A stretch of DNA of 64,000 nucleotides from an uncultured Dokdonia sp. GTDB taxonomy: Bacteria; Bacteroidota; Bacteroidia; Flavobacteriales; Flavobacteriaceae. Below the pieces are notes generated by a model that was given only the letters and a program-made list of their open reading frames with translations, was not told the DNA's origin and did no database searches. Below are positions 1 through 63,059 of the stretch, in pieces (the first letter of the stretch is position 1; every line of letters begins with the position of its first letter). Location of the stretch: assembly GCF_947496725.1 (NCBI RefSeq), contig NZ_CANMDS010000002.1, positions 248,001 to 312,000 of the forward strand, in the 5' to 3' direction. A program made the position numbers and the translations under genes.

Positions 1-1845
1 AATGTCTAGCCCAGGCTTTTCTAGTTCGCTTATAATATCAGTGAGTGTAGGAAGTCCTACCTCATCGGTTACATATTTTTGAAGGTCTATCGATTTAAGA
101 AGGCTTGTGTTTCCAATCATTTCGGCGACAGACACTTTTTGATCTTTGGCTATACTTGCAACCAATTTATATCTTTCTGGATGTACAGACGAGTTATCTA
201 ATGGATTCTCGGCACCTGTGATTCTCAAGAAACCTGCGGCTTGTACGAATGCTTTTCCACCAAGACGTGGCACCTTTTTAATCTCTTGACGTGTTTTGAA
301 GGGTCCTTCGCTTTCGCGAAAGCGTACTACACCTTCAGCAAGTTTTGGTCCAATACCTGACACATAGCTCAATAGCGGGGCACTTGCCGTATTTATATTG
401 ACACCCACGGCATTTACACAGTTTTCTACCGTTTGATCTAGCGATTTTTGAAGTGCTGTCTGATCTACATCGTGCTGATATTGCCCGACGCCAATTGACT
501 TTGCATCTATCTTCACCAGCTCTGCCAGCGGGTCTTGCAACCTACGACCTATAGAAACCGCGCCACGAACTGTCACATCATAATTAGGAAACTCATCACG
601 GGCAATCTTGCTTGCACTGTAAATAGAAGCTCCTGCCTCACTCACTACAAAAACCTCCATTGCATTCTTAAAATGAATACGCTTTACGAGTCTTTCGGTC
701 TCGCGGGAAGCCGTACCATTCCCGATGGCGATTGCTTCAATTTTATAAGCATCTGTAAGACTTGAGATCTTTTTTATCGCACCTTTGTCATCGTTTTTTG
801 GTGCGTGTGGATAGATAGTTTCATTATGTAATAACTGCCCCTGTGCATCGAGGCACACCAGCTTACAACCTGTTCTAAAACCTGGGTCTAGCGCAAGAAT
901 ACGCTTCTCACCTAGCGGTGAACCAAGGAGTAATTGTTTTAAATTTTTTGCAAAAACCTGAATAGCAGTTTCATCTGCTGTTTTCTTTGCTTCTGAGAGG
1001 CGCTCATTGCTCAAAGCAGTAAATAATAGTCGCTTGTAAGCATCTTTTATAGCAAGTTCAATCTGTGTGGCGCTGTCGCCACGAGAGCGTATGAGTTTGC
1101 GTTCTATTTTATCAAGCGCGCGCTCATCGTCAATGACAACCTTTACACGGATGTAACCTTCATTTTCAGCTCTTAAAATGGCAAGTAGTCTGTGTGACGG
1201 ACAGCGACTTAATGACTCAGACCAGTCAAAATAATCACGGAATTTCTGAGCTTTCTCATCGTTTGCCATTTTCTTAACCACCTTCGTCTCTATGGTGGCA
1301 AAACGTTTTAACTGCTCACGTATATTATTACGTATATCTGCACGCTCATTAATCCACTCGGCTATAATGTGACGTGCTCCTTCTAGCGCACTTTGTGCAT
1401 CTGGAACCTCCTTATTAGTATATCGATGCGCTAGTCCTTCTGGGTCTTGCGCATTTTGAGACATTATGATTTTGGCAAGTGGTTCTAGTCCGTTTACACG
1501 TGCTGTCTCGGCTTTCGTTTTACGCTTTTTCTTGTATGGTAAATACAAGTCTTCTAGCGTAGTAAGATCTTGCGTTTTTTCAATCTTATCTTTGAGTTGG
1601 CTAGTAAGAACGTCTTGCTCTTCTAGTGATTTAAGAATTGATTTTTTGCGCTTTTCTAAGGTTTCAAATTGCTCTTTGAGCTCGATAATCTTTCCTATCT
1701 CCACCTCATCAAGTCCACCCGTCGCTTCCTTGCGGTAGCGCGCTATAAAAGGGAGTGTGCAGTCTTCGTTGAGGAGATCTAGTGTATTTTTTACACCTTT
1801 TTCTGATAAGCCTGAGCTTTTGATTACGTATTGTAAAACCTCCAC
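1..1845 (-). CDS. tex: Tex-family RNA-binding transcription accessory protein (C-terminus beyond window)
   Basis: The protein is cut by the left window edge, and 615 codons are visible. They begin VEVLQYVIKSSGLSEKG and contain IARYRKEATGG near residue 35, typical of Tex. A YqgF/RNase H-like core (LALDPGFRTG) and a helix-hairpin-helix region (YVSGIGPKLAEGVVRFRESEG, LGGKAFVQAAGFLRI) follow. The final S1 RNA-binding domain lies outside the window. The start must be GTG at 1845, because an in-frame TAA lies four codons upstream and no ATG intervenes. It begins 4 bp after the metG stop, so the two are probably co-transcribed. Tex proteins bind nucleic acid and affect transcription and RNA processing; the exact role here is unknown. 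An exact copy of the iterated palindrome encodes RFRES within the HhH region. Confidence 0.93.
   Translation of the reverse strand, partial: MEVLQYVIKSSGLSEKGVKNTLDLLNEDCTLPFIARYRKEATGGLDEVEIGKIIELKEQFETLEKRKKSILKSLEEQDVLTSQLKDKIEKTQDLTTLEDLYLPYKKKRKTKAETARVNGLEPLAKIIMSQNAQDPEGLAHRYTNKEVPDAQSALEGARHIIAEWINERADIRNNIREQLKRFATIETKVVKKMANDEKAQKFRDYFDWSESLSRCPSHRLLAILRAENEGYIRVKVVIDDERALDKIERKLIRSRGDSATQIELAIKDAYKRLLFTALSNERLSEAKKTADETAIQVFAKNLKQLLLGSPLGEKRILALDPGFRTGCKLVCLDAQGQLLHNETIYPHAPKNDDKGAIKKISSLTDAYKIEAIAIGNGTASRETERLVKRIHFKNAMEVFVVSEAGASIYSASKIARDEFPNYDVTVRGAVSIGRRLQDPLAELVKIDAKSIGVGQYQHDVDQTALQKSLDQTVENCVNAVGVNINTASAPLLSYVSGIGPKLAEGVVRFRESEGPFKTRQEIKKVPRLGGKAFVQAAGFLRITGAENPLDNSSVHPERYKLVASIAKDQKVSVAEMIGNTSLLKSIDLQKYVTDEVGLPTLTDIISELEKPGLDI
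310..323. repeat. Iterated palindrome GCTTTCGCGAAAGC (in tex)
   Basis: Exact 14-bp copy, read as RFRES inside Tex. Confidence 0.97.
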
Positions 1846-1849
1846 ACGT

Positions 1850-3979
1850 TTAACTTATCATATTCCCATTAACCACTCCTTCGGCATCAGGATTTACAAA
1901 AACCAATTTCCCACTAGCATCCTCTGTCATTAAGATCATTCCTTCACTCTCTACACCACGTAATGCTCTAGGAGCCAGGTTTACGAGTACGGTTACTTGT
2001 TTCCCTATTACTTCTTCTGGAGTAAAGCTCTCTGCGATACCAGAAACGATGGTACGTACATCAATACCTGTATCGACTTTTAAGATGAGAAGTTTCTTCG
2101 TTTTCTTCATCTTCTCTGCTTCGATAATGGTACCTACTCGCATATCGAGTTTTGTAAAATCGTCAAACGTAATAGTATCCTTTTGTGGCTCTACAACTGC
2201 ATTTTCGGCAGCGGCTTCTGCTTCGTTTGCTGCTTTGCTTGCTTCTAGCTTATCTAGCTGTACTTGTATCTGACTATCTTCTATTTTTGAGAAGAGTAAT
2301 TGAGATTTGTTAATGGTGTGACCTGCAGGTAATGGCATCTCTCTTGTAGTTTTACGTACATTCATAGATAGATCATCTCCTTTAATGTTGTTAAAAGGTT
2401 CTTCTGACTTTTTATAAAGGTTTAAATCTTCATCAAGATTTAAAATCCCTTTAAGCTTTGAACTCGTAAAAGGTAAGAAAGGCTCACTAAGACTTGCTAG
2501 TGCAGCTGCTATTTGTAAGGCTACATACATTACTGTTTTAGTGCGCTCTTCATCTGTTTTGATTGTCTTCCACGGCTCTTCGTCTGCTAGGTATTTGTTT
2601 CCTAGGCGAGCAAGGTTCATAAATTCTGTTTGGCTTTCGCGAAAGCGGTATTTTTCTATACTGCTACCTATCACTGCTGGATATGCAGCCATCTCTGCAA
2701 GAGTCTGTTTATCAAGCTCATTAAGTACTCCTGGGGTAGGGACAACACCATCATAATATTTGTGCGTAAGTACGGTAACTCTGTTAATGAAGTTTCCGAA
2801 AATCGCTACAAGTTCGCTATTATTTCTAGTTTGGAAATCCTTCCAAGTAAAGTCGTTGTCCTTAGATTCTGGTGCGTTTGCTGTAAGTACATAACGCAAC
2901 ACATCCTGCTGATCTGGAAATTCTTCAAGATACTCGTGTAACCATACTGCCCAGTTTTTTGAAGTAGAAAGCTTGCGCCCTTCAAGATTTAAAAACTCGT
3001 TTGCAGGCACGTTATCTGGTAAAATATACTCGCCGTGACCTTTGAGCATCGCAGGGAAAATCAAACAGTGAAAAACGATATTATCCTTCCCGATAAAGTG
3101 AAGTAGCTTTGTGTTTTCATCCTTCCAGTACGGCTCCCAGTCTTTACCTTCACGTGCTGCCCACTCCTTTGTAGAAGAGATATAACCTATAGGCGCATCA
3201 AACCAAACGTACAGCACTTTACCTTCTGCTCCTTCTACTGGAACTGGGATTCCCCAGTCTAGATCACGAGTTACGGCGCGAGGTCGTAGTCCATCATCTA
3301 TCCAAGACTTACATTGCCCGTACACATTAGTTTTCCAGTCTTTTTTATGTCCTTTTATGATCCACTCCTTAAAGAAGTCATTGTATTGATCTAGTGGTAA
3401 AAACCAGTGCTTTGTTTCCTTAAGTGTAGGTACAGCTCCCGTAATCGCACTCTTTGGGTTAATTAAGTCTGTTGCGTTGTGGGAGGTACCACAGTTTTCA
3501 CACTGGTCTCCGTAAGCCTCCTCATAACCACACTTAGGGCAAGTTCCCGTCACAAAACGGTCTGCAAGAAACTGGTTTGCCTCTGCATCATACAGTTGCT
3601 CGTTTGTTTCTTCTATAAACTTACCTTGGTCGTACATATTCTTAAAAAACTCAGACGCTGTATCGTGGTGAATTTTTGCAGAGGTACGTGAGTAGTTATC
3701 AAAGGTAATCCCAAAATCTTCAAAAGATTTTTTGATTATCGCATTGTACTTATCTACCACATCTTGAGGGGTAACGCCCTCTTTTTTTGCTTTGATGGTG
3801 ATAGGCACACCGTGCTCATCACTTCCACATATAAAAGCAACATCTGCTCCTTGCATACGCTGGTAACGCGCATAAATATCTGCTGGAACATACACTCCTG
3901 CAAGGTGGCCTATGTGTATAGGTCCGTTAGTATACGGCAGTGCCGCTGTAATTGTATATCGTTGTGGATTCTGAGACAT
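1850..3979 (-). CDS. metG: Methionyl-tRNA synthetase with C-terminal tRNA-binding domain
   Basis: It charges tRNA-Met with methionine in the cytoplasm. The 709-aa protein has the HIGH motif at residues 22-25. A zinc knuckle uses Cys147, 150, 160 and 163 (CPKC...CENC). KLSTS (the KMSKS equivalent) sits at 336-340, followed by the anticodon-binding helical domain. A C-terminal EMAP/Trbp111-like tRNA-binding domain covers roughly 600-709 ([14 protein letters not shown]). The length is normal for the long bacterial MetRS class. I chose ATG at 3979 ([19 protein letters not shown]) over an in-frame codon 24 bases upstream, because family members begin just before the TAALPYTNG strand and a TATTTTTG promoter box lies close by. 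An exact palindrome copy encodes RFRESQ in the anticodon-binding region. Confidence 0.97.
2633..2646. repeat. Iterated palindrome GCTTTCGCGAAAGC (in metG)
   Basis: Exact copy, read as RFRES in MetRS. Confidence 0.97.
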
Positions 3980-4098: not shown

Positions 4099-4112
4099 GC
4101 TTTCGCGAAAGC
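4099..4112. repeat. Iterated palindrome, intergenic
   Basis: Exact copy 24 bases past the stop of the DUF1501 gene and upstream of metG. Confidence 0.97.
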
Positions 4113-4136: not shown

Positions 4137-5789
4137 TTATTTTACAAGAATACTCTTACTGTATTTTTTACCCGAAAACTGAATCTGATAGATGTATTGT
4201 CCTGTAAACAATCGCTTATTAATGCGTTCTTTAACATTAAACTTTTGTGGTCCTTCGTACATAAAGTCATTTACCACTGTACCCACTTCTTGCCCTAGTA
4301 GATTGTATAAGGTAACGGTCACCTTTGCCGTGCTGTTCATCGTAAACTCTATAAGGGTGTCATTACCCTGCACACTGCTCCAGTGCTGAAAAGTATCTGC
4401 TATATCAAAACTTCCAGAAGAGAGAGACTCACAGTCAAAACCTAGGTCTACACTCTCAAAAGATTGCCCGAGCAACACCTCATCTACCAGCCCGCCGTCG
4501 ATACATAGCCATTGCTTAAGCATTGTAGCATACACTTGTCTAAAATCTGTACTGTACTTTAAATTTCCTACTTGATCTGGATCTTGTAAATCTGGATGCG
4601 TACCCACAAAACCGTTGCCCTGCATCGCTGGGCCAAAAACCATAACAGGCGATGCCGCCCCGTGGTCTGTTCCATTTGATCCGTTTTCTTCTATACGACG
4701 TCCAAATTCTGAAAAAGTCATTGCCATCACATTAGTGTGCATACCGCTTGCCTCAAGATCTGTAAAAAAATCTTTCATACCACGAGCTACTTGCTCCATT
4801 CTATTATCGTGGGTTTCTTGCTGGTTTGCGTGCGTATCAAAACCGCCTAGCGTCACTAGATATACCTTTGTACCTAGACCTCCCTTGATCATTCTTGAGA
4901 TAATAGCGAGTTGCCTCCCTAAGCTTTGCGTATCATACTCAACGGCATTTGTCGCATTTTCATAAGCTTCGTTTATGGTACTCGCGTAGGTAAATGTGGT
5001 GTTAGTCATACCACGCATAAATTCTAACTGCTCACCAAAGGTGCATCCCGGTACATCTAGCACATCGTGTAGCACCCCATTTTCGGCAATGCTAGATAGC
5101 TGCGCAGGATTTGCTACAGAAAATGCATAGCTATTATCTACCCCATCAAAAATGAGATTACCCTGACTCCCTATCTGTATAGCCGCAGGAATCTCTGGAG
5201 GATTAATAAGAAAATCTGGATACAAATTTTCAAAATAACGCCCCAGCACGCCCGTCTCCTCATAGTTTACAGCATCTCCAGATGCCCAGATATCTGAACT
5301 TCTAAAGTGTGACAGATTTTGATCTGGGTAGCCTACACCGTGCACCACACGCATTGCACCATCTCCCCATAATGACTGTAAGTCTGCCATAGATTGTGGT
5401 ATCCCAAAATCTGCATTGAGATTGTACAAACTGTTTTCTGTGTGTCTTATAGACGGTCTATTATTTGCATAAAAATCATAATCATAAACCGGCACAATTG
5501 TATTGAGACCATCATTACCACCTTTAAGACGTACTAGAACGAGTACGCGGTCTTCATTTTCGGCAGTGGTGAGGGCTGTTGTTAATCTTGAGGGTGCAGA
5601 TGCTGTAAGATTTGTACCTCCAAGCATAATGCTTCCGCCACCTACTAGACCTAGAGCCTGCATAAAACTTCTTCTATTCCAAGTGCTATGCTCATCATCG
5701 TGGTGTGCGTCTTTAAGACTTGCTGTAGGTCCCGTTGCTGTTCTTTTTTTTGCTTTCGCGAAAGCGTGATTCTTATCGTGAGTACACAT
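4137..5789 (-). CDS. DUF1501 protein with Tat-like signal and T9SS sorting domain
   Basis: This 550-aa protein has a twin-arginine stretch (NRRSFMQALGL, residues 38-48) after an unusually long, polar N-terminus. The DUF1501 body (sulfatase-like fold) follows, with LVRLKGGNDGLNTIVP, GGFDTHANQQETH and SEFGRRIEENGSNGTDHG. The last roughly 80 residues (VTLYNLLGQEVGTV...GQYIYQI...KSILVK) form a type A T9SS sorting domain. Export by Tat followed by outer-membrane secretion or anchoring is inferred. It lies 9 bp downstream of the DUF1800 gene, its usual partner in Bacteroidota and Planctomycetes; the biochemical function of the pair is not established. The palindrome copy encodes HAFAKAKK in the extreme N-terminus, a poorly conserved stretch. 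Confidence 0.92.
   Translation of the reverse strand: MCTHDKNHAFAKAKKRTATGPTASLKDAHHDDEHSTWNRRSFMQALGLVGGGSIMLGGTNLTASAPSRLTTALTTAENEDRVLVLVRLKGGNDGLNTIVPVYDYDFYANNRPSIRHTENSLYNLNADFGIPQSMADLQSLWGDGAMRVVHGVGYPDQNLSHFRSSDIWASGDAVNYEETGVLGRYFENLYPDFLINPPEIPAAIQIGSQGNLIFDGVDNSYAFSVANPAQLSSIAENGVLHDVLDVPGCTFGEQLEFMRGMTNTTFTYASTINEAYENATNAVEYDTQSLGRQLAIISRMIKGGLGTKVYLVTLGGFDTHANQQETHDNRMEQVARGMKDFFTDLEASGMHTNVMAMTFSEFGRRIEENGSNGTDHGAASPVMVFGPAMQGNGFVGTHPDLQDPDQVGNLKYSTDFRQVYATMLKQWLCIDGGLVDEVLLGQSFESVDLGFDCESLSSGSFDIADTFQHWSSVQGNDTLIEFTMNSTAKVTVTLYNLLGQEVGTVVNDFMYEGPQKFNVKERINKRLFTGQYIYQIQFSGKKYSKSILVK
5752..5765. repeat. Iterated palindrome (in DUF1501 gene)
   Basis: Exact copy, read as AFAKA ahead of the Tat motif. 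Confidence 0.97.
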
Positions 5790-7369: not shown

Positions 7370-8269
7370 ATGGTTACACCTCCATATCTTAAATACGGCG
7401 ATAAAGTCGGAATAGTTGCCACGGCACGTAAAATTTCTAAAAAAGAACTTGAAGAGGGCATCGCGCTTCTTGAAAATTGGGGCTTAGTTCCCGTGCTAGG
7501 CAACACCATTGGCCTAGAAGATAATCAGTATGCTGGGACAGACTTTGAGAGAGCACAAGACTTTCAGCAAATGATGGATAATACGGAGATTAAAGCCATC
7601 TGGTGCGCCCGTGGCGGCTACGGAACCGTGCGCATAGTAGATGACATAGATTTTTACAAATTTGTCAAATACCCAAAGTGGGTAGTGGGTTACTCAGATG
7701 TGACAGTGTTACATAGTCACATTCATAAAATAGGCTTCAAAACGATACACGCTACGATGCCTGTATCTCTTGAAGATAATACCGCTTTCGCGAAAGCGTC
7801 ATTAAAACAATCGCTTTTTGGCGAGCAACCTAACTTTAGTTACAACACCACAAATAAACTTAATAGACTAGGCACTGCAAAAGGCACGCTTGTAGGCGGA
7901 AACCTCTCTATTCTTTACAGCCTTTGTGGCAGTAGCTCTGATCTAGATACAGCGGGTAAAATCTTATTTATAGAAGACCTGGATGAGTACCTCTATCACA
8001 TAGATAGAATGGTAGTAAACCTAAAACGCAACGGGATGCTGGATCACTGTGCGGGTATGGTAGTAGGTGGTATGACGAAGATGCACGATAACAGAATCCC
8101 TTTTGGGAAAACGGCTCAAGAGATTGTGCTAGATGCTGTAAAAGAATGTGACTTCCCAGTAGCGTTTGACTTCCCAGCAGGTCACGTAGATAATAATAAC
8201 GCATTGAAGTTGGGGAGTGAGATTACGCTTGAAGTAACAGCAACTAAAACAAGTATACAATATGAATAG
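7370..8269 (+). CDS. Peptidase S66 (LD-carboxypeptidase/MccF-like)
   Basis: Members of this family cleave the L,D bond of murein tetrapeptides during cell-wall recycling, or act on microcin-like peptides. The protein (299 aa) shows the S66 pattern: MVTPPYLKYGDKVGIVATA at the start, ARGGYGTVR, and the nucleophile region VVGYSDVTVLHSH. The acid region IEDLDEYLYHIDRM and the C-terminal histidine motif PAGHVDNNNAL complete it. I chose ATG 7370 over GTG 7355 because family members start with MxTPPYL. It overlaps the next gene by 8 bp. The palindrome copy encodes TAFAKAS in the inter-domain part. Cytoplasmic murein recycling is the likely role, from family knowledge. Confidence 0.93.
   Translation: MVTPPYLKYGDKVGIVATARKISKKELEEGIALLENWGLVPVLGNTIGLEDNQYAGTDFERAQDFQQMMDNTEIKAIWCARGGYGTVRIVDDIDFYKFVKYPKWVVGYSDVTVLHSHIHKIGFKTIHATMPVSLEDNTAFAKASLKQSLFGEQPNFSYNTTNKLNRLGTAKGTLVGGNLSILYSLCGSSSDLDTAGKILFIEDLDEYLYHIDRMVVNLKRNGMLDHCAGMVVGGMTKMHDNRIPFGKTAQEIVLDAVKECDFPVAFDFPAGHVDNNNALKLGSEITLEVTATKTSIQYE
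7784..7797. repeat. Iterated palindrome (in S66 peptidase gene)
   Basis: Exact copy, read as AFAKA. Confidence 0.97.
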
Positions 8270-10510: not shown

Positions 10511-10530
10511 TACGCTTTCGCGAAAGCGTA
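10511..10530. repeat. Iterated palindrome, extended 20-bp form
   Basis: TACGCTTTCGCGAAAGCGTA, perfectly palindromic over 20 bp. It ends 4 bases from the stop of the LysR gene. Confidence 0.97.
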
Positions 10531-13141: not shown

Positions 13142-13161
13142 TACGCTTTCGCGAAAGCGTA
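13142..13161. repeat. Iterated palindrome, extended 20-bp form
   Basis: TACGCTTTCGCGAAAGCGTA, 14 bases after the sbtA stop and 15 before the next start. Confidence 0.97.
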
Positions 13162-13513: not shown

Positions 13514-14398
13514 ATGGCAAAGATATTAAAATCACTTTCTGAGTATGTACAAATTGCTATAGGTATTGCCCTCGCGAGTATAGGCCTCAAGGCTTTCTTG
13601 CTACCTAATGGGTTTCTGGATGGTGGAGCAACGGGTATCGCTATTTTATTAAGTAAAAAGTTAGATCTAGACATCTCCTTACTGCTCTTTATTGTGAGTA
13701 TTCCGTTTCTAGTGTTGGGTTTTTATAAGCTTTCGCGAAATATTCTTTTAAAAAGTACAATGTCCATCTTAATACTAGCAGTCCTTATAGGTGTTGAGTC
13801 ATTTCCTATTATCACTGAAGATAAGTTGCTCATTGCGATTTTTGGCGGTATGTTTTTAGGAGCTGGTATTGGTATCAGTATACGCAACGGTGCGGTACTT
13901 GACGGATCTGAAATTCTAGGAATTTATGTCTTTGATCTTTTTGGAATAAGTATAGGTAAGACCATTTTGGCATTCAATATTGTTCTATTTATTATCACTG
14001 CATTAGTACTTAGTGTAGAGGTTGCTCTGTATTCCATACTTACCTATATCGTGACAGCAAAATTTATCGATTTTTTTATAGAGGGATTTGAAGACTTTAT
14101 AGGTATTACTATCATATCACCGTCATCTGAAGAAATAGAACAAAAGATTCTTAACCAACTAGGCACTGGTATCACCGTCTACAAAGCGGCGGCAGGTTAC
14201 GGCAGTACGGGTCAAAATAATGAACGCCGCGTGATACAAACCGTGATAAATCGTATACACCTGCGTAAAATACACAAGCTCATAGCCTCCTGCGATCCCG
14301 ATGCTTTTATCGTAGAGTTTGACGTGAATAATGTAAAAGGAGGAGTTTTAAAAAGGTATCTGAATCCTCAAAGTTCAAAAAAGTTGGCTAGTCTTTAG
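13514..14398 (+). CDS. YitT family membrane protein (DUF161/DUF2179)
   Basis: The 294-aa protein has five or six membrane helices in the first 190 residues, with the family signatures GLKAFLLPNGFLDGGATGIAI and GAVLDGSEILGIY. A soluble C-terminal DUF2179 domain follows (about 195-285: GITIISPSSEEIEQKILNQ, GTGITVYKAAAGYGSTG). Transport function is presumed in this family but the substrate is unknown. A 12/14 copy of the palindrome lies at 13729, encoding KLSRN. Confidence 0.92.
   Translation: MAKILKSLSEYVQIAIGIALASIGLKAFLLPNGFLDGGATGIAILLSKKLDLDISLLLFIVSIPFLVLGFYKLSRNILLKSTMSILILAVLIGVESFPIITEDKLLIAIFGGMFLGAGIGISIRNGAVLDGSEILGIYVFDLFGISIGKTILAFNIVLFIITALVLSVEVALYSILTYIVTAKFIDFFIEGFEDFIGITIISPSSEEIEQKILNQLGTGITVYKAAAGYGSTGQNNERRVIQTVINRIHLRKIHKLIASCDPDAFIVEFDVNNVKGGVLKRYLNPQSSKKLASL
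13729..13742. repeat. Degenerate copy of iterated palindrome
   Basis: GCTTTCGCGAAATA: the first 12 bases match and the last two differ. Inside the YitT-type gene. Confidence 0.8.
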
Positions 14399-14429: not shown

Positions 14430-14443
14430 GCTTTCGCGAAAGC
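14430..14443. repeat. Iterated palindrome, intergenic
   Basis: Exact copy between two convergent genes, 6 bases past the DUF2490 stop and 31 past the YitT-type stop. No T-tract follows, so it is not a canonical terminator. Confidence 0.97.
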
Positions 14444-15732: not shown

Positions 15733-15868
15733 GATCTTCCTTTTTTGAGTTAAATAGCCATCCCAAGGGTAACCAAATCACAAAGAACAGAAACTTCCCA
15801 GTTACTAAGCCTATAATGGTAATAATTGCAGCGATTACCGCAAGCGAATTTTTCCAGGATTTACTCAT
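15722..15868 (-). CDS. 48-aa single-helix membrane protein coupled to mfd
   Basis: This is a short ORF: MSKSWKNSLAVIAAIITIIG at the start, then LVTGKFLFFVIWLPLGW, ending KKEDRVD. Hydrophobic residues 8-40 form one long or two short membrane helices, with a charged tail. Its ATG overlaps the mfd stop (ATGAGTAA, 8 bp shared) and follows a good Shine-Dalgarno sequence (AGGAGGTG). Its stop overlaps the next gene by 11 bp. Overlap at both ends, good hydropathy and the strong RBS argue that it is real. I do not recognise a family. Confidence 0.72.
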   Translation of the reverse strand: MSKSWKNSLAVIAAIITIIGLVTGKFLFFVIWLPLGWLFNSKKEDRVD

Positions 15869-18800
15869 CACCTCCTGAGGTCTTTGCGGTTACTTTTTGA
15901 GTACTCTTTGGCATTAATGGTCTTAATAATGCGACAACGTCATTTACAGTTTTTGCATCGTCAGATTTTAAGAGAAGTCTAAGTCCTTTCGACAGTTTCT
16001 TTTCTTTGATGCTCACGCGGTATGCATTTTCTTGTACAAACTTAAGCACACGGCCAAAGGTAGGACTCTGGTAAAAAGAGCTCTGCTGGTCTGCTATAAA
16101 GAAGCCTGTGAGTTTGCCATTTTTCATTACTACTTTCTCTAGGCCTATCTTAGTTGCTACCCACTTAATGCGCACAGAGTCCAGCAAGTCTTCGGCCTCA
16201 TCTGGTAAGGGTCCAAAACGATCTACAAGTTTTGCCTCAAAGGCATCAAGCTGTTCTTCGGTTTTTACATTATTCAAGTCAGTGTATAGACTTAGACGCT
16301 CTGTAATGCTATTTACATAATCATCTGGGAAGAGAAGACTAAAGTCGGTATCAAGTACGGTGTCTTTTACGTATTCTCTTTCTTCTTTCGCGAAAGCGGG
16401 ATCATCTTTATAAAGCTCTGCAAACTCATCTTCTTTGAGTTCATCTATGGCCTCGTTGAGGATTTTTTGATAGGTATCAAAACCTATTTCATTAATAAAG
16501 CCGCTCTGTTCTCCTCCTAATAAATCTCCTGCACCACGTATCTCAAGATCTTTCATCGCGATATTAAAACCGCTTCCTAATACAGAAAACTGCTCTAGCG
16601 CCTGGATACGTTTTCTAGCATCCTCGGTCATTACAGAGTATGGCGGTGTGATAAAATAACAGAAGGCCTTTTTATTACTTCGTCCCACACGACCACGCAT
16701 CTGGTGTAGGTCTGAGAGTCCAAAGTTATTTGCATTGTTTATAAAAATGGTATTTGCATTAGGGACATCAAGACCACTCTCAATAATGGTGGTTGAGACC
16801 AATACATCAAACTCCCCATTCATAAACGAGAGCATTTTTGCCTCTAGGGCTTTACCTTCCATCTGGCCGTGACCTACGCCCACTTTTGCATCTGGCACAA
16901 GGCGCTGTATGAGGCCAGCGACTTCCTTTATATTCTCTATACGATTATGAATAAAAAATACCTGCCCACCACGTTGTATCTCATACGAGACTGCATCTCG
17001 TATCACCTCTTCTGAGAAGCGCACAACATTACTTTCTATAGGGTAACGGTTAGGTGGTGGCGTGGTGATGGTACTAAGATCACGAGCCGCCATAAGTGAG
17101 AATTGTAAGGTACGAGGTATAGGTGTTGCTGTGAGTGTGAGCGTGTCTACCGTTTCTGAGATAGTCTTGAGTTTATCTTTTACGGCTACACCAAACTTCT
17201 GCTCTTCGTCAATTACTAGAAGACCTAGGTCTTTAAAAATGACATTTTTACTAGTGAGCTGGTGCGTACCTATCACTATATCTACCGCGCCACTCTCGAG
17301 GCCGGCGAGCACTTCTCTTTTTTCCTTGGCTGTACGGAAACGGTTGAGATACTCTACCGTCACTGGGAAACCTTTAAGGCGTTCTTTAAACGTACGCGCG
17401 TGTTGATAGGCAAGTATTGTGGTAGGAACTAGTATTGCTACCTGCTTACCGTTATCTACCGCCTTAAACGCGGCACGTATGGCAACCTCTGTTTTACCGA
17501 AACCTACATCACCACACACTAGTCTATCCATAGGGCGATCGCTCTCCATATCGCGTTTTACATCTTCTGTAACGCTGCTTTGATCTGGAGTGTCTTCATA
17601 TATAAAACTCGCTTCTAGCTCGTGCTGCATATGGGTGTCTGGCCCAAAGGCATATCCCTTTTGCAGGCGGCGTTTTGCATAGAGTTTTATAAGGTTAAAG
17701 GCTATGTGTTTTACCTTAGATTTTGTTTTGGCTTTAAGCTTTTTCCAGGCTTGGCTTCCTAGTTTATATACTTGTGGCGGCTTACCATCTTTACCGTTGT
17801 ACTTGGTGATTTTATGTAATGAGTGTATACTCAGGTATAAGATGTCACGCTCACCATAAATGAGCTTGATGGCTTCTTGCATTTTACCCTCAACGTCTAT
17901 CTTTTTGAGTCCGCCAAATTTTCCTATACCGTGATCTATGTGCGTGACATAATCACCTACACTTAGATTAGTAAGCTCCTTGAGCGTGATGGCTTGCTTT
18001 TTTGCATAGCCATTTTTGATATTAAACTTATGGTAGCGTTCAAAGATCTGGTGATCTGTATACACCACCATTTTTGTGTCATTATCTACAAAACCTTGAT
18101 AAAGTGATAGCACAATGGTCTCATAGGATGATACAATAGCATCTGCATCATCAAAAATGTCTTGAAAACGCTTTGCTTGTTGCTCACTACTACAAGTGAT
18201 AATATTCTTATAACCACGAGCGTGGTTATCATTTAAGTTTTCTATAAGGAGGTTAAACTGCTTATTAAAAGATGGCTGTGGCGCCACATCAAAGGTGATG
18301 CTATGTTCTATCTCACCTACCTCTGCACTACTTCCTAAATCTATAGTGGTAAAAGAGTCAAGTTGTTCTTTTAGATTTTTACCGTGACAAAAAAGCTCTT
18401 CTGGTGAGTTGCGTTTTACCTCTTGTGAGAGGTTTTCAAAAGCTTCTTCGGCTTTAGAAAAGTTTTGATCTGTGCGATCATATAACAACGACCTGTTTTT
18501 AATAAAAACGACTGTCTTTGCAGAGATATATTTTAAGAAACTAGCTCTTGTTTCTTCTAATGCCTTGTTCTCCACATTAGGCATTATTGATATTTTCTTT
18601 ACTTGGTCTAACGACAGCTGACTCTCAACATCAAAGGTTCTAATACTATCTACCTCATCGCCAAAAAACTCTATACGATACGGCCTGTCGTGCGAAAATG
18701 AAAATACATCTACAATACCTCCACGCACCGAAAACTCACCCGGCTCTGTTACAAAATCTACTCTTTTAAAACGATACTCAAAGAGCATCTCATTTATAAA

Positions 18801-19294: not shown

Positions 19295-19308
19295 GCTTTC
19301 GCGAAAGC
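19295..19308. repeat. Iterated palindrome between divergent mfd and DoxX genes
   Basis: Exact copy. It is the only intergenic copy not near a gene's 3' end; it overlaps the probable -33 region of mfd. Confidence 0.97.
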
Positions 19309-19842: not shown

Positions 19843-19856
19843 GCTTTCGCGAAAGC
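19843..19856. repeat. Iterated palindrome, intergenic
   Basis: Exact copy, 37 bases past the DoxX gene stop. Confidence 0.97.
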
Positions 19857-40233: not shown

Positions 40234-40269
40234 AAAAAAGGCTGTAACCTAATGGTTACAGCCTTTTTT
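40234..40269. terminator. Bidirectional terminator
   Basis: Stem GGCTGTAACC/GGTTACAGCC with loop TAAT, preceded by six A and followed by six T. It lies between convergent genes. Confidence 0.92.
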
Positions 40270-40291
40270 AAATCATATAGTTTTACCTGAC

Positions 40292-41062
40292 TTAAAACTC
40301 AGCTTTTCTTTTTTCAAGAAATGCCGTGGTTCCTTCGGTGAAGTCTTCTGTGCCAAAACACCCGCCAAATTCTTCTATCTCTGTATCAAACCCATCTACA
40401 CCATTTTCATAACCTGCATTTACAGCATTAATCGCTGCGGCAATTGCCATAGGTGAGTTACGCATAATCTTTCCGCCTAGTTTATTTGCTAGAGGTACTA
40501 ATTCTTCTTGTGCTGTGATGTGATTTATAAGTCCGTACTCAAGTGCCGTATTTGCATCTATCATTCCGGCAGTCATTATCATCTCCATCGCACGCCCTTT
40601 ACCTACTAGTTGTGGTAAGCGTTGTGTACCTCCATAACCTGGTATCACACCTAGACTTACCTCCGGAAGCCCCATACGAGCATTATCACTAGCGATTCTA
40701 AAATGTGCTGCCATTGCTAGCTCTAGACCACCTCCCAGTGCAAAACCGTTTACGGCTGCTATGACTGGGGTACCCATTTCGGCAACGTAGTCAAAAAGTA
40801 ATTCTTGTCCCTTTCTTGCAAGCTCTGCACCTTGCTCTTCAGAGAAGTTTGCAAATTCAGAAATGTCTGCTCCTGCTACAAATGCCTTCTCTCCAGATCC
40901 GGTAATGATCACAACGCGTACTCCTGTATCTTCTTCCGCTTTCGCGAAAGCGGTATGAAGCTCCTCTATAGTCTCCTTGTTAAGGGCGTTAAGTTTTGAA
41001 GGTCTGTTTATCGTGATAGTCGTGATGCTATCTGAAGTTTCTGAAAGTATGTTATTGTACAT
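40292..41062 (-). CDS. Enoyl-CoA hydratase/isomerase (crotonase) family protein
   Basis: The 256-aa protein has the oxyanion loops FVAGADISEF and NGFALGGGLELAMAAHFRIAS, and the catalytic glutamates in the GLEL stretch and in LPEVSLGVIPGYGGTQRL. Both are present, as in true enoyl-CoA hydratases. It hydrates trans-2-enoyl-CoA in fatty-acid or amino-acid breakdown. It is monocistronic. The palindrome copy encodes TAFAKAEED in an early surface helix. Confidence 0.95.
   Translation of the reverse strand: MYNNILSETSDSITTITINRPSKLNALNKETIEELHTAFAKAEEDTGVRVVIITGSGEKAFVAGADISEFANFSEEQGAELARKGQELLFDYVAEMGTPVIAAVNGFALGGGLELAMAAHFRIASDNARMGLPEVSLGVIPGYGGTQRLPQLVGKGRAMEMIMTAGMIDANTALEYGLINHITAQEELVPLANKLGGKIMRNSPMAIAAAINAVNAGYENGVDGFDTEIEEFGGCFGTEDFTEGTTAFLEKRKAEF
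40938..40951. repeat. Iterated palindrome (in enoyl-CoA hydratase gene)
   Basis: Exact copy, read as AFAKA. Confidence 0.97.
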
Positions 41063-51485: not shown

Positions 51486-51505
51486 TACGCTTTCGCGAAA
51501 GCGTA
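51486..51505. repeat. Iterated palindrome, extended 20-bp form
   Basis: TACGCTTTCGCGAAAGCGTA, one base past the stop of the AraC gene. Confidence 0.97.
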
Positions 51506-54763: not shown

Positions 54764-55440
54764 CCGTGCTATCCACAAAAAAACTAAAGCCTAACCAGCG
54801 AGAGCTACTTCTCAATGCAGGCTTACAATTTGTGGAATATGATGGGATACGTACACAAGAGGTTGCTTTTACGCTTTCGCGAAAGCTAAAAAATATCATT
54901 ATCACCTCTCAAAATGGAGTACGCGCTTTATGTAACAACCTTTCTAATGAAGAATTAGAAAGTATAGAAAGTTGTTTTGCTGTTGGCATAAAAACAACAG
55001 CACTTCTAGCCGAAAATGGCATAAAAGTGACAAAAACAGCTCATAATGGAGAAGAATTGGCTCATTTTATAGCCAAAAACCATAAAAACGAATCATTCAC
55101 TTACTTCTGCGGGAGACAGCGCAGAGATGAGCTACCTACATTACTCAAAGAAAATAATGTAGCGTGTGAAGAGGTGGTGGTTTATGAAACTCATCAAATA
55201 ACACAGTCTTTTGACCGTACATTTGATGGAATTTTATTTTTTAGTCCGAGTGGTGTGAACGCTTTCGCGAAAGCAAACAAAAACACACGAGCAATAGACA
55301 GCATAGCCTTTTGCATAGGCGAGACCACTGCCACAACAGCTAGATTACACTTTAAAAAAGTAATCGTGTCTAATGCAACAACTATAGAAAGCACCATTGC
55401 TAAGGCGGTGAAAACATTGAAAGAAGAATCTAGAACATAA
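54760..55440 (+). CDS. hemD: Uroporphyrinogen-III synthase
   Basis: It closes hydroxymethylbilane to uroporphyrinogen III with inversion of ring D. The 226-aa protein has the weakly conserved HemD pattern: [64 protein letters not shown] and [16 protein letters not shown]. It carries two exact palindrome copies, at 54873 (TLSRKLKN) and 55261 (NAFAKANK), the only gene here besides protein A with two. Confidence 0.93.
54873..54886. repeat. Iterated palindrome (in hemD, first)
   Basis: Exact copy, read as LSRK. Confidence 0.97.
55261..55274. repeat. Iterated palindrome (in hemD, second)
   Basis: Exact copy, read as AFAKA, in a different frame from the first. Confidence 0.97.
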
Positions 55441-56569: not shown

Positions 56570-57063
56570 TGAACGTCTGGGCTGTTGTCAAATCTATGGA
56601 TTTTAAACAGCTGTGGAGCCTTTTTTGGCTCAGTGCCCGCCATCCTAGATTTGTGATTCCTACCATAAGGGGGACTCGCAAAACAGTTGCTATATGTAAT
56701 AAACATTATGGCAAAAAACAGCACCTCAACGGCCCAGAAAATGCTTTTAGACACGCCCTGTGGAATATGCTTATCGTACACCTTAGTGTGCAAAGAGGCT
56801 TGCCGCTGCAGCGCTCGCTTGCGTGGGCAAAACGGTTTACAGACTGGCACGAAGATTTTTCTCCTAACGCACCTTTAGAGCGTGCGATGGACTTGCATAA
56901 CAACCGCGTGGGGCGCGACCTCATCACTAGTCTTTGCGGGCAAGACGAAGAGCAACTGGTGACACAACTACTGGAGATGGTCCCGCTTTCGCGAAAGCGT
57001 ACTGCAAAACAAGAATTTGCAGATAGTTGTGATTACCTCATTTACATAGAGGAAACGGTTTAA
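56569..57063 (+). CDS. DUF6973-like protein
   Basis: The 164-aa soluble protein has the pattern NGPENAFRHALWNMLIV, then DWHEDFSP, then RAMDLHNNRVGRDL. I recall this as the DUF6973 set, in which paired His, Glu and Asn/Asp residues could bind metal. No catalytic activity is known to me. Its start overlaps the hemE stop by one base, so it is translated with the hem operon. The palindrome copy near the C-terminus encodes PLSRKRTAK. Confidence 0.82.
   Translation: MNVWAVVKSMDFKQLWSLFWLSARHPRFVIPTIRGTRKTVAICNKHYGKKQHLNGPENAFRHALWNMLIVHLSVQRGLPLQRSLAWAKRFTDWHEDFSPNAPLERAMDLHNNRVGRDLITSLCGQDEEQLVTQLLEMVPLSRKRTAKQEFADSCDYLIYIEETV
56985..56998. repeat. Iterated palindrome (in DUF6973-like gene)
   Basis: Exact copy, read as LSRKR. 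Confidence 0.97.
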
Positions 57064-57912: not shown

Positions 57913-58818
57913 ATGAAAGAACAATTTGTAAACTACATACTCAATCTTCAAGATCAAATTACTAGCACACTAGAGCAACTAGATGGTAAGGCCAGCTTTC
58001 AAGAAGACAACTGGAAACGCCCAGAAGGTGGTGGTGGTCGCACACGCGTGATTGAAAACGGAAATATCTTTGAAAAAGGAGGTGTAAACACATCACAAGT
58101 GCACGGCGAGTTACCAGAGGCAATGCAAAAATACTTTGGCGTAGAAGATGCAAATTTCTTTGCCTGCGGTTTATCTCTAGTGCTTCATCCTAAGAGTCCT
58201 ATGGTTCCTACGGTGCACGCAAACTGGCGTTACTTTGAGATGTATGACAAAGAAGGAAACATTGTAGATCAATGGTTTGGTGGAGGGCAAGACCTCACTC
58301 CTTATTACCTTTTTGATGAAGACGCAACGCACTTTCACCAAACCTGTAAATCCGCTTGTGATGCACACGATGCCGACTTTTATCCAAAATACAAAGCACG
58401 TTGTGATGAGTATTTTTACAACACACACCGCAATGAAGGTCGCGGTATAGGAGGTTTATTTTTTGATTACTGCAAAGCTACCACAGAGCGTTCTATGCAA
58501 GACTGGTACAACTTTGTGACCACAGTTGGTGATAGTTTCTTAGAGGCATACGTCCCTATTGTGGAGCGTAGAAAGGATACCGCTTTCGCGAAAGAACAAA
58601 AAGACTGGCAAGAGGTACGCCGTGGTCGTTACGTAGAATTTAACCTAGTACACGATAAAGGAACCCTTTTTGGTCTCAAAACCAATGGCCGCATTGAAAG
58701 CATCTTAATGAGCCTTCCTCCCGTAGTACAGTGGAAATATGATCACCACCCAGCACCTGGAAGCGAAGAAGAACGATTAATAAAAGTACTGCAGCAACCG
58801 AAGGAGTGGGTTTCTTAA
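57913..58818 (+). CDS. hemF: Oxygen-dependent coproporphyrinogen III oxidase
   Basis: It oxidatively decarboxylates coproporphyrinogen III to protoporphyrinogen IX using O2. The 301-aa protein has the HemF signatures GGGGRTRVIENGNIFEKGGVN, MVPTVHANWRYFEM, WFGGGQDLTPYYLFDEDA, NEGRGIGGLFFDY and RRGRYVEFNLVHDKGTLFGL. The cell therefore depends on oxygen for this step. A 13/14 palindrome copy at 58582 encodes TAFAKEQKD. Confidence 0.97.
   Translation: MKEQFVNYILNLQDQITSTLEQLDGKASFQEDNWKRPEGGGGRTRVIENGNIFEKGGVNTSQVHGELPEAMQKYFGVEDANFFACGLSLVLHPKSPMVPTVHANWRYFEMYDKEGNIVDQWFGGGQDLTPYYLFDEDATHFHQTCKSACDAHDADFYPKYKARCDEYFYNTHRNEGRGIGGLFFDYCKATTERSMQDWYNFVTTVGDSFLEAYVPIVERRKDTAFAKEQKDWQEVRRGRYVEFNLVHDKGTLFGLKTNGRIESILMSLPPVVQWKYDHHPAPGSEEERLIKVLQQPKEWVS
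58582..58595. repeat. Near-copy of iterated palindrome (in hemF)
   Basis: GCTTTCGCGAAAGA, 13 of 14 bases match. Confidence 0.88.
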
Positions 58819-58822: not shown

Positions 58823-61483
58823 CTATCTCCATATAGCACTCGTCTTGGTTTTAAATCCGCCTTTGGTATTTAAGTAATGAAAACGTGCTTTTAAGAGTCG
58901 TTTTCTACCTTCCTTAGTACGCGTGAAAGTGAGCCTTGCATTTTCTGAAATGTAAATTCCCCAGAAGTTAAAAAAGAGCGTAGCATCTTTTTTATTACCT
59001 GCAAAGAGTTCTGGTACGGGATAATAATTTGCAAAGCCAAATTTGCGCTGCCACCACCCAGACTGCTCAATCATATAGCGTGCATTATCTATAGGCGTAA
59101 GAAGTTCTTCCATACACTTTACAAAAAGGATTTCTTCTTTGGCAGTAGCTCCTGTAAGAAAGCAAGAGACGGCACCATTAGGTAGATACTCTACACCTAG
59201 TTTTAGGGCTTCTAGCTGCGTGGTGATGTAGTACTGCTCTCGTAGGCTTTTAAGCACTACTTGCCCCATTTTATACACCAGTTTATCTACACGTCCATAT
59301 TTTAAGTACAACACGAGAGTTTTATATGTCTTGGGCGCAAGTACCATTGCTGCTGTGCCTAGCACTGCATATATAAAAAAGCCCATTCCTCTAGAGAAGT
59401 AAGCTCCTGCATTATTAATAATAATCTCCGGTACGGTAATCGTGAGTAAAGCCCCAAGCTGTAGTACTCCATATTTTACAGCATCCTTATAGTAAACGCT
59501 GTTTTTTTGTAGCGGCTTCCCCTTAGGTTTAAAGTCTAATTTCAGTTCGCGCACTAACAGTTTTCCCGTACCTATAGCTTGCTCCCATCGCTGTTGTATC
59601 GCACCTCTATTTCCCGCAAGGGTACACATTTTACTATTTAATACTTCTTTTTCTAAAATAGTGGTAGGTAGAGCAAACCGCTCTGCGCCATTTTCTATAA
59701 AGGGAGTTCCCTCTAGTGATACACCACAAAAGGCATCAAAGCGTCTGGTTAATTTTATCACATCCTCACCACCACCATCTATAGTGGGATCTATACAAGC
59801 AAGATGCCATATAGAAGCTACCTTATCTGGATTACTAGGCTGTACTCGTATAGCTCTACCGCGCATCTGGTTAGACATTACAAAAGAACTCACGTAGGAG
59901 GCAAGCACCAGTGTATTAATAGCTGGCGCATCCCAACCTTCTCCTAGTAATGCTGCTGTTCCTACTAGCACTTCTATATGGCCGTCTGTAAAAAGAGCCG
60001 TCATAAGGCTTACCATCTGGCTTTTTACCTTTTCTCTAGGTCGCACTATCACAAAGGCTGTATCACCTAAGGCGTCGTGCGTAAAATCATCACTATCTAG
60101 TGTCTCTGTAATTTGTGCTACCAGAGTTTTATGTACTATGATAATGGTACCTGTGAGTACGGCAAGTTTTTCTAGTTTATCCTTACCCTGCCACCTATCT
60201 GGATGTTGTTCAAGTGAGTAGCGCAGGTGGTGAAAGATAGGTATTACTCCCAGCTTATTTATTGTGTCAAGCGCATCTATAGGGGTGTCTATAAACTCCT
60301 TACGCACGTAATCTGTAAGTATAACAGCGCGTAAGTTTTCACCCATTTGAGCACTTTCAAAATCTATAATCTCTCGTATGCTCTTGTGCTTATTAGGGCT
60401 TTGGGCTAGTGATTTATATAATTGCTGCTCGCCTTTAAAGTTTACACGTTTTTTATCAAAAGCACCTACCTTACGAAGTGTCTTCTCAACAGTAGCAAGT
60501 ACCTCTTCGTCTTCATAATGATCTTCTCGGTCATCTACTAGTAGCGGTTGCAATAACTTTTCTGCCCACTCTTGATTAAAGGTAGGAAGCTTTTCTTGGG
60601 TAAGGTCTACACCTAGCAAATCTATTTTTACCTTAGGGATTTTATACCCACGTGCATTAAGATAGACAAGAGAAGCTATATAAAAGTTAGGGTCTTTATA
60701 AATGATCTCAAGATGTTTTCCTGGTGTTTTATATACTGGGAGACTTATAATAAAACTGCCAAACTCACTATTTTCTACCAGTTCATCTATAACTGTTTTT
60801 GCCTTAACACGATAGTCTAAAATGTATTCTATTTGTGCAGCATCTGGCTCAGAAAAATAAATATAATCTTGGTGTGCACAGAGGTTACCTTCTTTAACCA
60901 GCTCTGGCACGCTTATCTCAATATCTATAGGTCCACAAAGCTGAAAATACTTTGCTATCTCTGCTTGATCACTATCATATGGCGGTGTTGCCGTAAGTGC
61001 GGTAATGGTGCACTCTGGCAGTTCTTTAAGTGCAAAAAGTGGTTTCCACCACTCGTTTTTGAGGTGATGGGCTTCGTCTAGTACGATGTTTTTTATTCCC
61101 GCTTGCGCGAAAAAGTTAAGCACACGTTCCATATCGCCTTCCATTTCATTTTTGGCAAATGCGTGTAATGATTGATAGGTTGCAAAGGTGATGTGTGCAG
61201 GTTTTTTTATATTTCGCGAAAGCGGAATAGTACATTTTTCTTGCTCGATAAAGCACTCAAACATACGCTCCTCCCACTGGTTGCGTATCGTGATAGTAGG
61301 TGCGAGCACAAGCGTACACTTATCTACACGGCGCATCATCTCAAGACCAAGCACAGTTTTTCCCGAGCCTGGCGGGGCAACTACGTGCAAGTGATCATCT
61401 GCAATGTGATCTTGAAAATCTTTTAAAAATCGTTCCTGATAGGTGCGCCAGGGATAAATAAATTGAAAGGCTTCTTTGAGCAA
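58823..61483 (-). CDS. SF2 DEAH helicase with hydrophobic C-terminal region
   Basis: The 886-aa protein has an N-terminal superfamily 2 motor: Walker A VVAPPGSGKTVLGLEM (36-43), DEAHH (136-140), ALTATPP, then HIEVLVGTAALLGEGWDAP and MSNQMRGRAIRVQP (motifs V-VI). The last roughly 330 residues are not helicase-like. They include two strongly hydrophobic stretches (about 672-696 and 699-720) followed by soluble sequence ending KTSAIWR. A membrane-attached helicase is unusual; the role is unknown. It interrupts the haem run, opposite to hemF and hemB. Decayed palindrome-like sites lie at 61101 and 61210. Confidence 0.85.
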   Translation of the reverse strand: MLKEAFQFIYPWRTYQERFLKDFQDHIADDHLHVVAPPGSGKTVLGLEMMRRVDKCTLVLAPTITIRNQWEERMFECFIEQEKCTIPLSRNIKKPAHITFATYQSLHAFAKNEMEGDMERVLNFFAQAGIKNIVLDEAHHLKNEWWKPLFALKELPECTITALTATPPYDSDQAEIAKYFQLCGPIDIEISVPELVKEGNLCAHQDYIYFSEPDAAQIEYILDYRVKAKTVIDELVENSEFGSFIISLPVYKTPGKHLEIIYKDPNFYIASLVYLNARGYKIPKVKIDLLGVDLTQEKLPTFNQEWAEKLLQPLLVDDREDHYEDEEVLATVEKTLRKVGAFDKKRVNFKGEQQLYKSLAQSPNKHKSIREIIDFESAQMGENLRAVILTDYVRKEFIDTPIDALDTINKLGVIPIFHHLRYSLEQHPDRWQGKDKLEKLAVLTGTIIIVHKTLVAQITETLDSDDFTHDALGDTAFVIVRPREKVKSQMVSLMTALFTDGHIEVLVGTAALLGEGWDAPAINTLVLASYVSSFVMSNQMRGRAIRVQPSNPDKVASIWHLACIDPTIDGGGEDVIKLTRRFDAFCGVSLEGTPFIENGAERFALPTTILEKEVLNSKMCTLAGNRGAIQQRWEQAIGTGKLLVRELKLDFKPKGKPLQKNSVYYKDAVKYGVLQLGALLTITVPEIIINNAGAYFSRGMGFFIYAVLGTAAMVLAPKTYKTLVLYLKYGRVDKLVYKMGQVVLKSLREQYYITTQLEALKLGVEYLPNGAVSCFLTGATAKEEILFVKCMEELLTPIDNARYMIEQSGWWQRKFGFANYYPVPELFAGNKKDATLFFNFWGIYISENARLTFTRTKEGRKRLLKARFHYLNTKGGFKTKTSAIWR
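61210..61223. repeat. Degenerate copy of iterated palindrome (in helicase gene)
   Basis: TATTTCGCGAAAGC, 12 of 14 bases match. A weaker trace (GCTTGCGCGAAAAA) lies at 61101. Confidence 0.7.
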
Positions 61484-63036: not shown

Positions 63037-63039
63037 AAT

Positions 63040-63059
63040 TACGCTTTCGCGAAAGCGTA
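63040..63059. repeat. Iterated palindrome, extended 20-bp form
   Basis: TACGCTTTCGCGAAAGCGTA, 3 bases past the stop of the DUF3291 gene. Confidence 0.97.

Follow-up and report, generated by a model that had tools for sequence, protein, structure and literature searches.

The 64,000-nucleotide stretch analyzed here, referred to as the window, comes from an uncultured member of the marine genus Dokdonia (contig NZ_CANMDS010000002.1, positions 248,001 to 312,000) and contains 23 exact copies of the 14-bp palindrome GCTTTCGCGAAAGC. This 14-mer is the center of a symmetric recognition site about 60 bp long, and the site is kept by selection across Dokdonia genomes, at one copy per 3–6.5 kb depending on the species, and in two other flavobacterial genera. 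We tentatively interpret it as a self-DNA signal that would be bound by a symmetric reader protein and would resemble an uptake sequence in its effect, an interpretation that we rank first while considering it somewhat short of probable. A previous sequence-only reading of the window had described the palindrome, and that part of its picture stands; it had missed the extent of the site, which is about 60 bp and not 14, the strand-polar flanks and the even spacing.

Abundance and distribution of the site

The sequence-only reading had proposed a general signal and named two outcomes that would speak against it, a background-level count and confinement to the window. Both are contradicted by the 905 exact copies in the whole genome (3,291,590 bases in 121 contigs), in which a reversed-pattern control gives 0. 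Sequence was read directly for about 22% of this genome, and pattern and family searches underlie the statements on the whole of it. Within 724 kb the runner-up 14-bp palindrome has 3 copies compared with 211 for the 14-mer, over half of which (118/211) are coding, and intergenic DNA is enriched for sites approximately 8–10 fold. An order-5 Markov background with the sites masked predicts 0.0027 copies in 324 kb, where 101 are observed. The density first reported for the window, one copy per 2.8 kb, compares with one per 3.6 kb in the whole genome.

The 14-mer is absent from 5.39 million open-access papers, with subscription journals and preprints outside the scope; judged by titles and the beginnings of abstracts, none of the open-access papers that mention both Dokdonia and palindromes deals with this site, and the main text of a survey of motifs in prokaryotic genomes contains neither Dokdonia nor Flavobacteri (PMC5217627). 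The papers listed for TTTCGCGAAA and palindromes are one on words absent from human and other animal genomes (PMC8034619) and one on honeybee color.

The signal is clade-limited as well as genome-wide. Handles are used where genera and genomes must be told apart (g1, Dokdonia; G000, the genome of the window; g11 and g191, the other two carrier genera). In a sample of 397 genomes from the family Flavobacteriaceae, six have 408–905 copies (this genome, another Dokdonia, three g11 and one g191), 74 further genomes have 1–19 and all others have zero; a phylum sample of 395 genomes adds no further carrier, with a maximum of 6 copies besides this genome. The 10-bp core occurs 481–1195 times in each of the 18 Dokdonia genomes searched (one per 3.1–6.5 kb) and 595 times in one g11 genome, compared with 0–12 times in the other 60 genomes. 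The two non-Dokdonia carrier genera have one site per 5–8 kb. In a hemE search of named genomes, from which the best 80 of 580 loci were taken, all six loci titled Dokdonia contain 3–6 copies (in one case on a contig of 8.9 kb), the Flavobacteriaceae locus L013 contains one, and the other 73 contain zero.

In midpoint-rooted trees of HemF, ParB and AddB, g11 lies on a separate long branch apart from Dokdonia, and by these proteins it is apparently not a close relative. The HemF tree groups g1 and g191 with Leeuwenhoekiella, whose loci are without exact sites, with moderate support (94/87); the ParB and AddB trees do not settle the placement of g191. Of 22 genomes searched, 20 have a HemF match, and in 13 of these one and the same HemF codon carries the 10-bp core; the 13 include G190 of g191 and the divergent Dokdonia G400, whereas in g11 the core is missing there. 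Because the same codon carries the core in g1 and g191, the sites of these two genera appear to be of common ancestry. Two g11 sites can be mapped onto a Dokdonia stretch, and one coincides with a Dokdonia site (within 9 bp) upstream of a gene that we take, by recognition, to be asparaginyl-tRNA-synthetase-like; the coincidence may reflect either shared descent or parallel gain. Comparison of 100 kb with the Dokdonia stretches sampled gave 11 full-length matches and no clear outlier indicating recent transfer between g11 and Dokdonia.

Isolated copies also occur in relatives. The Leeuwenhoekiella loci L024, L029, L038 and L057 have a common one-mismatch copy in the same gene and peptide context (RVRES), which would be either a remnant or a protein-driven coincidence. 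Two close non-carrier loci, L013 (18308, exact) and L015 (15728, one mismatch), have a copy at the same LSRK codons, either a remnant of an ancestral system or chance.

Sites in the window

The 14-mer was verified at all 23 starts given by the sequence-only reading, as were its four near-copies; an additional near-copy with two mismatches lies at 41465, which brings the near-copies to two with one mismatch and three with two. These 28 matches with at most two mismatches compare with a mean of 0.15 in dinucleotide shuffles. Thirteen exact copies lie within long reading frames, encoding AFAKA (6), RFRES (4) or LSRK (3) as reported before. Open reading frames (ORFs) were taken from a simple caller, and dropping open frames there leaves 12 coding copies instead of 13, the frame that holds site 310 running past the start of the window. 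The names hemD, hemF and hemE are those of the sequence-only reading and rest on recognition of the sequences. The sites are as follows.

310–323, exact site, coding (RFRES), in open frame 1–1845 (minus strand)
2633–2646, exact site, coding (RFRES)
4099–4112, exact site, intergenic
5752–5765, exact site, coding (AFAKA)
7784–7797, exact site, coding (AFAKA)
10514–10527, exact site, intergenic
13145–13158, exact site, intergenic, directly past a stop codon (ORF end 13128)
13729–13742, near-copy, two mismatches (last two bases), in ORF 13514–14398 (plus strand)
14430–14443, exact site, between convergent genes
16384–16397, near-copy, one mismatch (first base), in ORF 15861–19259 (minus strand)
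19295–19308, exact site, between divergent genes
19843–19856, exact site, intergenic
23109–23122, exact site, coding (AFAKA)
26141–26154, exact site, intergenic
28012–28025, exact site, coding (LSRK)
29919–29932, exact site, coding (RFRES)
32433–32446, exact site, coding (RFRES)
40938–40951, exact site, coding (AFAKA)
41465–41478, near-copy, two mismatches, in ORF 41125–42573 (minus strand)
44898–44911, exact site, coding (AFAKA), in a peptide context also seen in Dokdonia locus L014
47179–47192, exact site, intergenic
51489–51502, exact site, intergenic
54873–54886, exact site, coding (LSRK), in hemD, present in 2/7 Dokdonia rows
55261–55274, exact site, coding (AFAKA), in hemD, present in 5/7 Dokdonia rows
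56985–56998, exact site, coding (LSRK), in a 164-aa ORF, present in 6/7 Dokdonia rows
58582–58595, near-copy, one mismatch (last base), in hemF at the codon that carries the 10-bp core in 13/20 genomes with a hemF match
61210–61223, near-copy, two mismatches, in ORF 58823–61483 (minus strand)
63043–63056, exact site, intergenic, directly past a stop codon (ORF end 63036)

By eye, three big adjacent minus-strand ORFs at 29076–38664 resemble paralogues, and two of them fall in the largest site-free gap of the window (32433–40938).

Anatomy of the site

Each site consists of the core CGCTTTCGCGAAAGCG, TTA/TAA next to it, and then about 20 bp on the 5′ side of each strand, such that the 5′ flank of either strand is G/T-rich and C-poor. 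Three Dokdonia genomes provided 388 intergenic half-flanks, in which positions predicted to be coding were masked. Their consensus reads outward C, G, C, A, T, T/G, followed by a preference for T at −9, −11, −12 and −15 and for G at −13 and −14. Coding flanks, upstream and downstream alike, show the same preferences including G at −14, which indicates that these are not a mere by-product of genes or of intergenic composition. In this genome the 5′ flank has a G-over-C skew of 0.5–0.7 at −7 to −18, which is 0.2 at −25 to −30 and nil by −31 to −40; the skew in G206 and G010 matches it, and that in G190 reaches only about −9 (34 half-sites). What the flanks hold in common is positional preference, not an alignable repeat. 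The information in the site amounts to about 42 bits, 20 of them contributed by the exact core used for collecting sites, compared with about 11.6 bits required to locate the approximately 1045 sites in this genome.

The two-fold symmetry fits a symmetric protein, and the earlier suggestion of a dimeric DNA-binding protein is upheld to that extent. Covariation between the two arms does not exceed that expected under independence (z of −0.8 to −1.8 for intergenic and +0.7 to −1.4 for coding sites), which favors readout as double-stranded DNA over a hairpin. A hairpin or cruciform was rejected because arms that do not covary indicate that base-paired structure is not what is kept. A transcription terminator was also rejected: the sequence is T-rich before and A-rich after the palindrome, opposite to what a terminator has, and the majority of copies lie in coding DNA.

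The words GGG, GGT, GTG, GTT and TGG are enriched 2–5 fold at 7–24 nt in the 5′ flank, as might be expected of a bidirectional Chi-like signal for recombination or repair, at which an AddAB-type or other nuclease would be stopped or switched from either side and the G/T-rich 5′ strand would favor a stable RecA filament. TGG repeats, which are similar to Chi, give the most stable RecA filaments, but RecA nucleation is no better on TG-rich or Chi DNA, and the latter observation counts against a Chi-like role (PMC3763553). The density of the site is close to that of Escherichia coli Chi, which has 1008 copies (PMC1939737). Known Chi sequences are, however, short and asymmetric, and we regard a Chi-like signal as unlikely.

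Flank T falls preferentially in one 3-nt phase (0.48 versus 0.37 and 0.39), and its power at periods 3, 5 and 10.5 exceeds that of all 500 rotations, which is not so for periods 2 and 4; with simple ORF calls as the basis, the T periodicity is likely genuine. The period of 10.5, together with a palindrome that has wide symmetric flanks, speaks for the main rival to a self-DNA signal, a chromosome-organizing site at which a nucleoid protein would bind or wrap the 60 bp and anchor the chromosome every 3 kb or so, in the manner of MatP, Noc or SlmA but here genome-wide. To our knowledge, the copy number far exceeds that of known palindromic organizer sites.

Spacing and site-free gaps

The coefficient of variation (CV) of spacing for the first 100 sites of contig C1 is 0.46 (Poisson = 1), and over 660 kb of C1 it rises to 0.64 because a few gaps reach 8–20 kb. 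Exact sites give 0.63 in the window and 0.73 in G206, and core spacings give 0.57 in G206 (60 spacings), 0.73 in G190 (16) and 0.39 in G010 (16). By the same measure E. coli Chi is random in 200 kb (CV 1.06, 42 spacings) and is without the flank in the same analysis, which further separates the site from a Chi-like signal. In the single-contig genome G411, twenty 20-kb stretches round the genome contain 4–8 sites each (dispersion index 0.19, p = 6e-5) with no gradient visible; 33 bins of C1 give a dispersion index of 0.29. The rate at which the next site is met increases from 0.05–0.07 per kb within 500 bp to 0.4–0.8 per kb past 2.5 kb (347 spacings). Evenness and short-range exclusion together indicate that the benefit of one site extends 2–3 kb and then saturates.

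Evenness this strong and free of a visible gradient is also a point in favor of a chromosome-organizing site, and even spacing of uptake sequences was formerly interpreted as pointing to replication, repair or compaction (PMC1939737). The scattered occurrence and near absence in relatives would nevertheless be odd for housekeeping architecture, and we consider an organizing role doubtful.

Five gaps in C1 exceed 7.5 kb, with a G+C content of 0.32–0.37. Two of them adjoin (29.7 kb jointly; approximately 515.8–545.5 kb, L261–L263), have a low G+C content of 0.32–0.34, and carry type I restriction genes together with a large serine recombinase; these two of the five largest gaps represent a foreign-looking element. 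Its lack of sites could also reflect an unrecognized defense or quality-control system that spares site-bearing DNA, the site serving as a self barcode, and the high information and even coverage suit a mark that is needed on every fragment. A nuclease or reader for such a system was not found among the comparisons described below, and 17 of the 132 viral-contig sites scored have Dokdonia-like flanks, suggesting that some phages may carry the mark. We judge a defense system of this kind to be distinctly improbable.

Selection on sites within genes

Coding sites in hemD, hemF and the 164-aa ORF replace codons in the same alignment columns, and carriers are without insertion there. In hemD, AFAKA occupies the S-F/Y-x-x-x position of most other sequences in 5 of 7 Dokdonia rows, and the AFAKA-site HemD proteins are 55–61% identical to that of the window, apart from the near-identical L009. 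The LSRK site of the 164-aa ORF is found in 6 of 7 rows, four of them 47–54% identical; in row L010 the site is lost and an insertion of 8 residues lies alongside. The second hemD site is kept in only 2 of 7 rows, which indicates that sites also turn over. G411 and this genome overlap over 76 kb at 94.8% identity and have 24 of 25 cores in common, compared with 59% expected for a neutral 10-mer (p = 3e-5), and no drop in divergence extends beyond the core, bases 10–100 away diverging as elsewhere. The occurrence of sites in all three frames, their in-place replacement of codons in the examined genes and their conservation between species show that selection acts on the DNA itself, as the sequence-only reading had argued.

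These alignments also bear on how the copies arose. A leftover mobile repeat, such as a repetitive extragenic palindrome (REP) or a miniature inverted-repeat transposable element (MITE) that inserted copies, would be in keeping with their number and symmetry. However, the in-place replacement in the three genes, the coding majority, the even spacing and the flanks that do not align as a repeat all run counter to it, and we disfavor this origin as extremely improbable.

One-mismatch forms number 15 beside 44 exact copies in G206 (200 kb) and 4 beside 101 exact copies in this genome (324 kb), a contrast which indicates that decay differs between species. The site system may be decaying in the species of G206. 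In G206 (L109–L118), internal one-mismatch forms are commoner than in this genome, and 5 of the 15 are of the C-to-T type at the outer bases of CGCG. The one-mismatch forms of this genome all differ at the outermost base (4/4), as in the highly iterated palindrome HIP1 of cyanobacteria, whereas only 5/15 do so in G206. The resemblance, together with a palindromic, iterated occurrence in coding DNA, raises a HIP1-type explanation in which methylation by an orphan methyltransferase, or methyl-directed repair, would create and keep sites.

Search for a reader protein

Cyanobacterial HIPs have been linked by Elhai to matching methyltransferases (PMC4390886). The methylase suggested by the sequence-only reading is not borne out here: of four methyltransferase families none is present in every carrier tested (PF00145 in 4/9, PF01555 in 2/9, PF02086 in 6/9 and PF02384 in 12/13), and the single-contig G190 has PF01555 alone. 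A methyltransferase link was rejected for these families. We know of no comparable 60-bp polar flank at HIP1, and a HIP1-type mechanism has, in our estimation, only a slight chance of being correct.

Each of nine carriers has a single ParB, and no residue separates them from nine non-carriers; ParB was rejected as the reader, and the same result counts against a chromosome-organizing site. The canonical parS core TTTCACGTGAAA was not found in any of the sequences scanned. The AddB-type nuclease domain PF12705 occurs in 18/18 genomes, carriers and non-carriers alike, which would supply an enzyme for a Chi-like signal, but carriers are not grouped in the AddB tree, the AddB of g11 stands apart from the Dokdonia AddB, and no alignment column of the protein distinguishes carriers from non-carriers. 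AddB was likewise rejected as the reader. Inspection of site clusters for a reader gene (7 of the 11 pairs less than 600 bp apart in 660 kb) gave no lead by eye.

A proposed self-DNA signal

For the self-DNA signal that we favor, the proposed mechanism is that a symmetric protein, either a dimer or a dimer of dimers, would bind the site as double-stranded DNA. Site-bearing fragments would be preferentially taken up or handed to RecA-dependent recombination, with each site serving the surrounding 2–3 kb; that the site would thereby mark a cell's own kind of DNA in DNA exchange is the least certain step. If one site covers 2–3 kb then a second nearby would add little, and its symmetry would let the site work on either strand and in either direction. 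We rank this mechanism first because most distribution features match those of uptake sequences and because Riemerella columbina, a relative among the flavobacteria, shows a preference for its own DNA when transformed, the signal for this preference not being known (PMC7965970). The intergenic excess, the even spacing, the in-place substitution, the conserved cores, the gaps at restriction and recombinase genes and the information content, which exceeds that required for location, are all consistent with it.

Several observations weigh against a self-DNA signal. A reader was not found among the methyltransferase, ParB, AddB and PF00437 comparisons. With PF00437 as the only family searched (comEC and dprA were not), 9 of 14 carriers, this genome among them, gave no PilB/GspE-type ATPase; matches above the cut-off (E below 1e-100) occur in 5/14 carriers and 3/17 non-carriers, and in the remaining 23 of 31 genomes the matches are weak and fall short of it. 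The core is a perfect palindrome, which uptake sequences are not. No paper on transformation of Dokdonia stands among the matches listed. Finally, a comM-like frame beside the serine recombinase in this genome is 283 aa long and contains only part of the Mg-chelatase domain. It looks as though an element had entered comM, and a brief look at this genome did not reveal the other half of the frame.

How bacteria distinguish self from foreign DNA, and why some genomes fill with one short word, are the open questions that the site touches, and the matches listed include no established uptake signal in Bacteroidota. The site provides an unusually clean case, in which extreme over-representation, a wide symmetric anatomy and even spacing with a measurable exclusion range occur together. 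A single family contains both carriers and clean non-carriers, and none of the four methyltransferase families tested is common to all carriers. If the site is a self-DNA barcode, foreign DNA would be excluded or disadvantaged by a species-level sequence mark.

Sites outside the carrier genera

Stretches taken from five low-count genomes cover 4/4 (G078), 2/6 (G101), 5/5 (G087), 5/8 (G337) and 5/6 (G012) of their copies, and every copy in them is coding. In three of the five, a site pair 933 bp apart represents two sites inside one efflux gene. Pfam matches are to an AcrB-type transporter, an outer membrane efflux protein and a heavy-metal P-type ATPase in one low-count stretch and to a FUR-family protein in another. 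The simplest reading of these sequences is that the metal-efflux cluster came from a site-rich donor, and since the cluster carries sites elsewhere, the signal may serve as a tracer of gene flow. Metal-efflux clusters of other Flavobacteriaceae with Dokdonia-type sites were observed in L089, L090, L091, L092, L093, L094 and L095.

At least 120 stretches of viral contigs contain sites. The 17 scored sites with Dokdonia-like flanks lie in 15 loci (L132, L150, L163, L167, L171, L175, L180, L181, L203, L205, L210, L214, L235, L238 and L241), some contigs having two or three sites; these contigs are possibly phages or prophages of carriers. In Aequorivita, Winogradskyella and Algibacter (L020, L041, L059, L060, L062, L074, L084) we observed repeated interrupted palindromes of the form ACCT-NNN-AGG(T), which may be another iterated-hairpin family.

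Comparison with known systems

The half-site TTTCGC resembles the parS half-site TTTCAC and the Noc half-site TTTCCC. The site differs from parS and Noc in its hundreds of chromosome-wide copies, and the carriers tested have one ParB each, without carrier-specific residues and without a carrier-specific ParB/Noc paralogue. Insertion, the origin of REP and MITE copies, is not seen at the hemD, hemF and 164-aa ORF sites.

E. coli Chi (GCTGGTGG) is similar in density and in the adjoining G/T-rich strand, and carriers have the AddAB/RecBCD-type enzyme (PF12705) that a Chi system involves. It is unlike the site in being a short asymmetric word read on one strand, randomly spaced in the control and without symmetric flanks. 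HIP1 (GCGATCGC) and the alternate HIPs of cyanobacteria share with the site an over-represented, iterated palindrome in coding DNA, a clade-limited occurrence and an unsettled function, that of HIP1 being still termed a mystery in 2015 (PMC4390886). The site is longer and less dense than HIP1 and has strand-polar flanks, and no cognate methyltransferase common to the carriers tested was found among the four families.

A further likeness is to the DNA uptake sequences and uptake signal sequences (DUS/USS) of Neisseriaceae and Pasteurellaceae, and the resemblance noted in the sequence-only reading holds for most distribution features: hundreds of copies above background in coding and non-coding DNA, an intergenic excess, spacing more even than random, a clade-limited occurrence and a flank beyond the core. 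Published uptake sequences have coding copies, a non-coding excess, no orientation bias and, by one analysis, even spacing, and the Haemophilus influenzae sequence has a 29-bp extended consensus with T-tracts (PMC1939737). The resemblance does not extend to symmetry or machinery. Uptake sequences (DUES) are described in the same source as not palindromes (PMC1939737), whereas the site is a perfect 14-bp palindrome with flanks on both sides and about 42 bits, and the ATPase of a type IV pilus or related uptake machine was not found in most carriers tested (PF00437 in 5/14). By the features tested, the site falls outside the known uptake-sequence systems. More tentatively still, it may represent a new class of genome-wide self-DNA signal, in which a symmetric, strand-polar site of about 60 bp would have a dedicated reader. 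This protein, which could perhaps be transferred horizontally, would be neither a methyltransferase nor a component of a type IV pilus uptake machine; it would sample DNA at a scale of 2–3 kb, select for even spacing and provide a barcode against foreign DNA.

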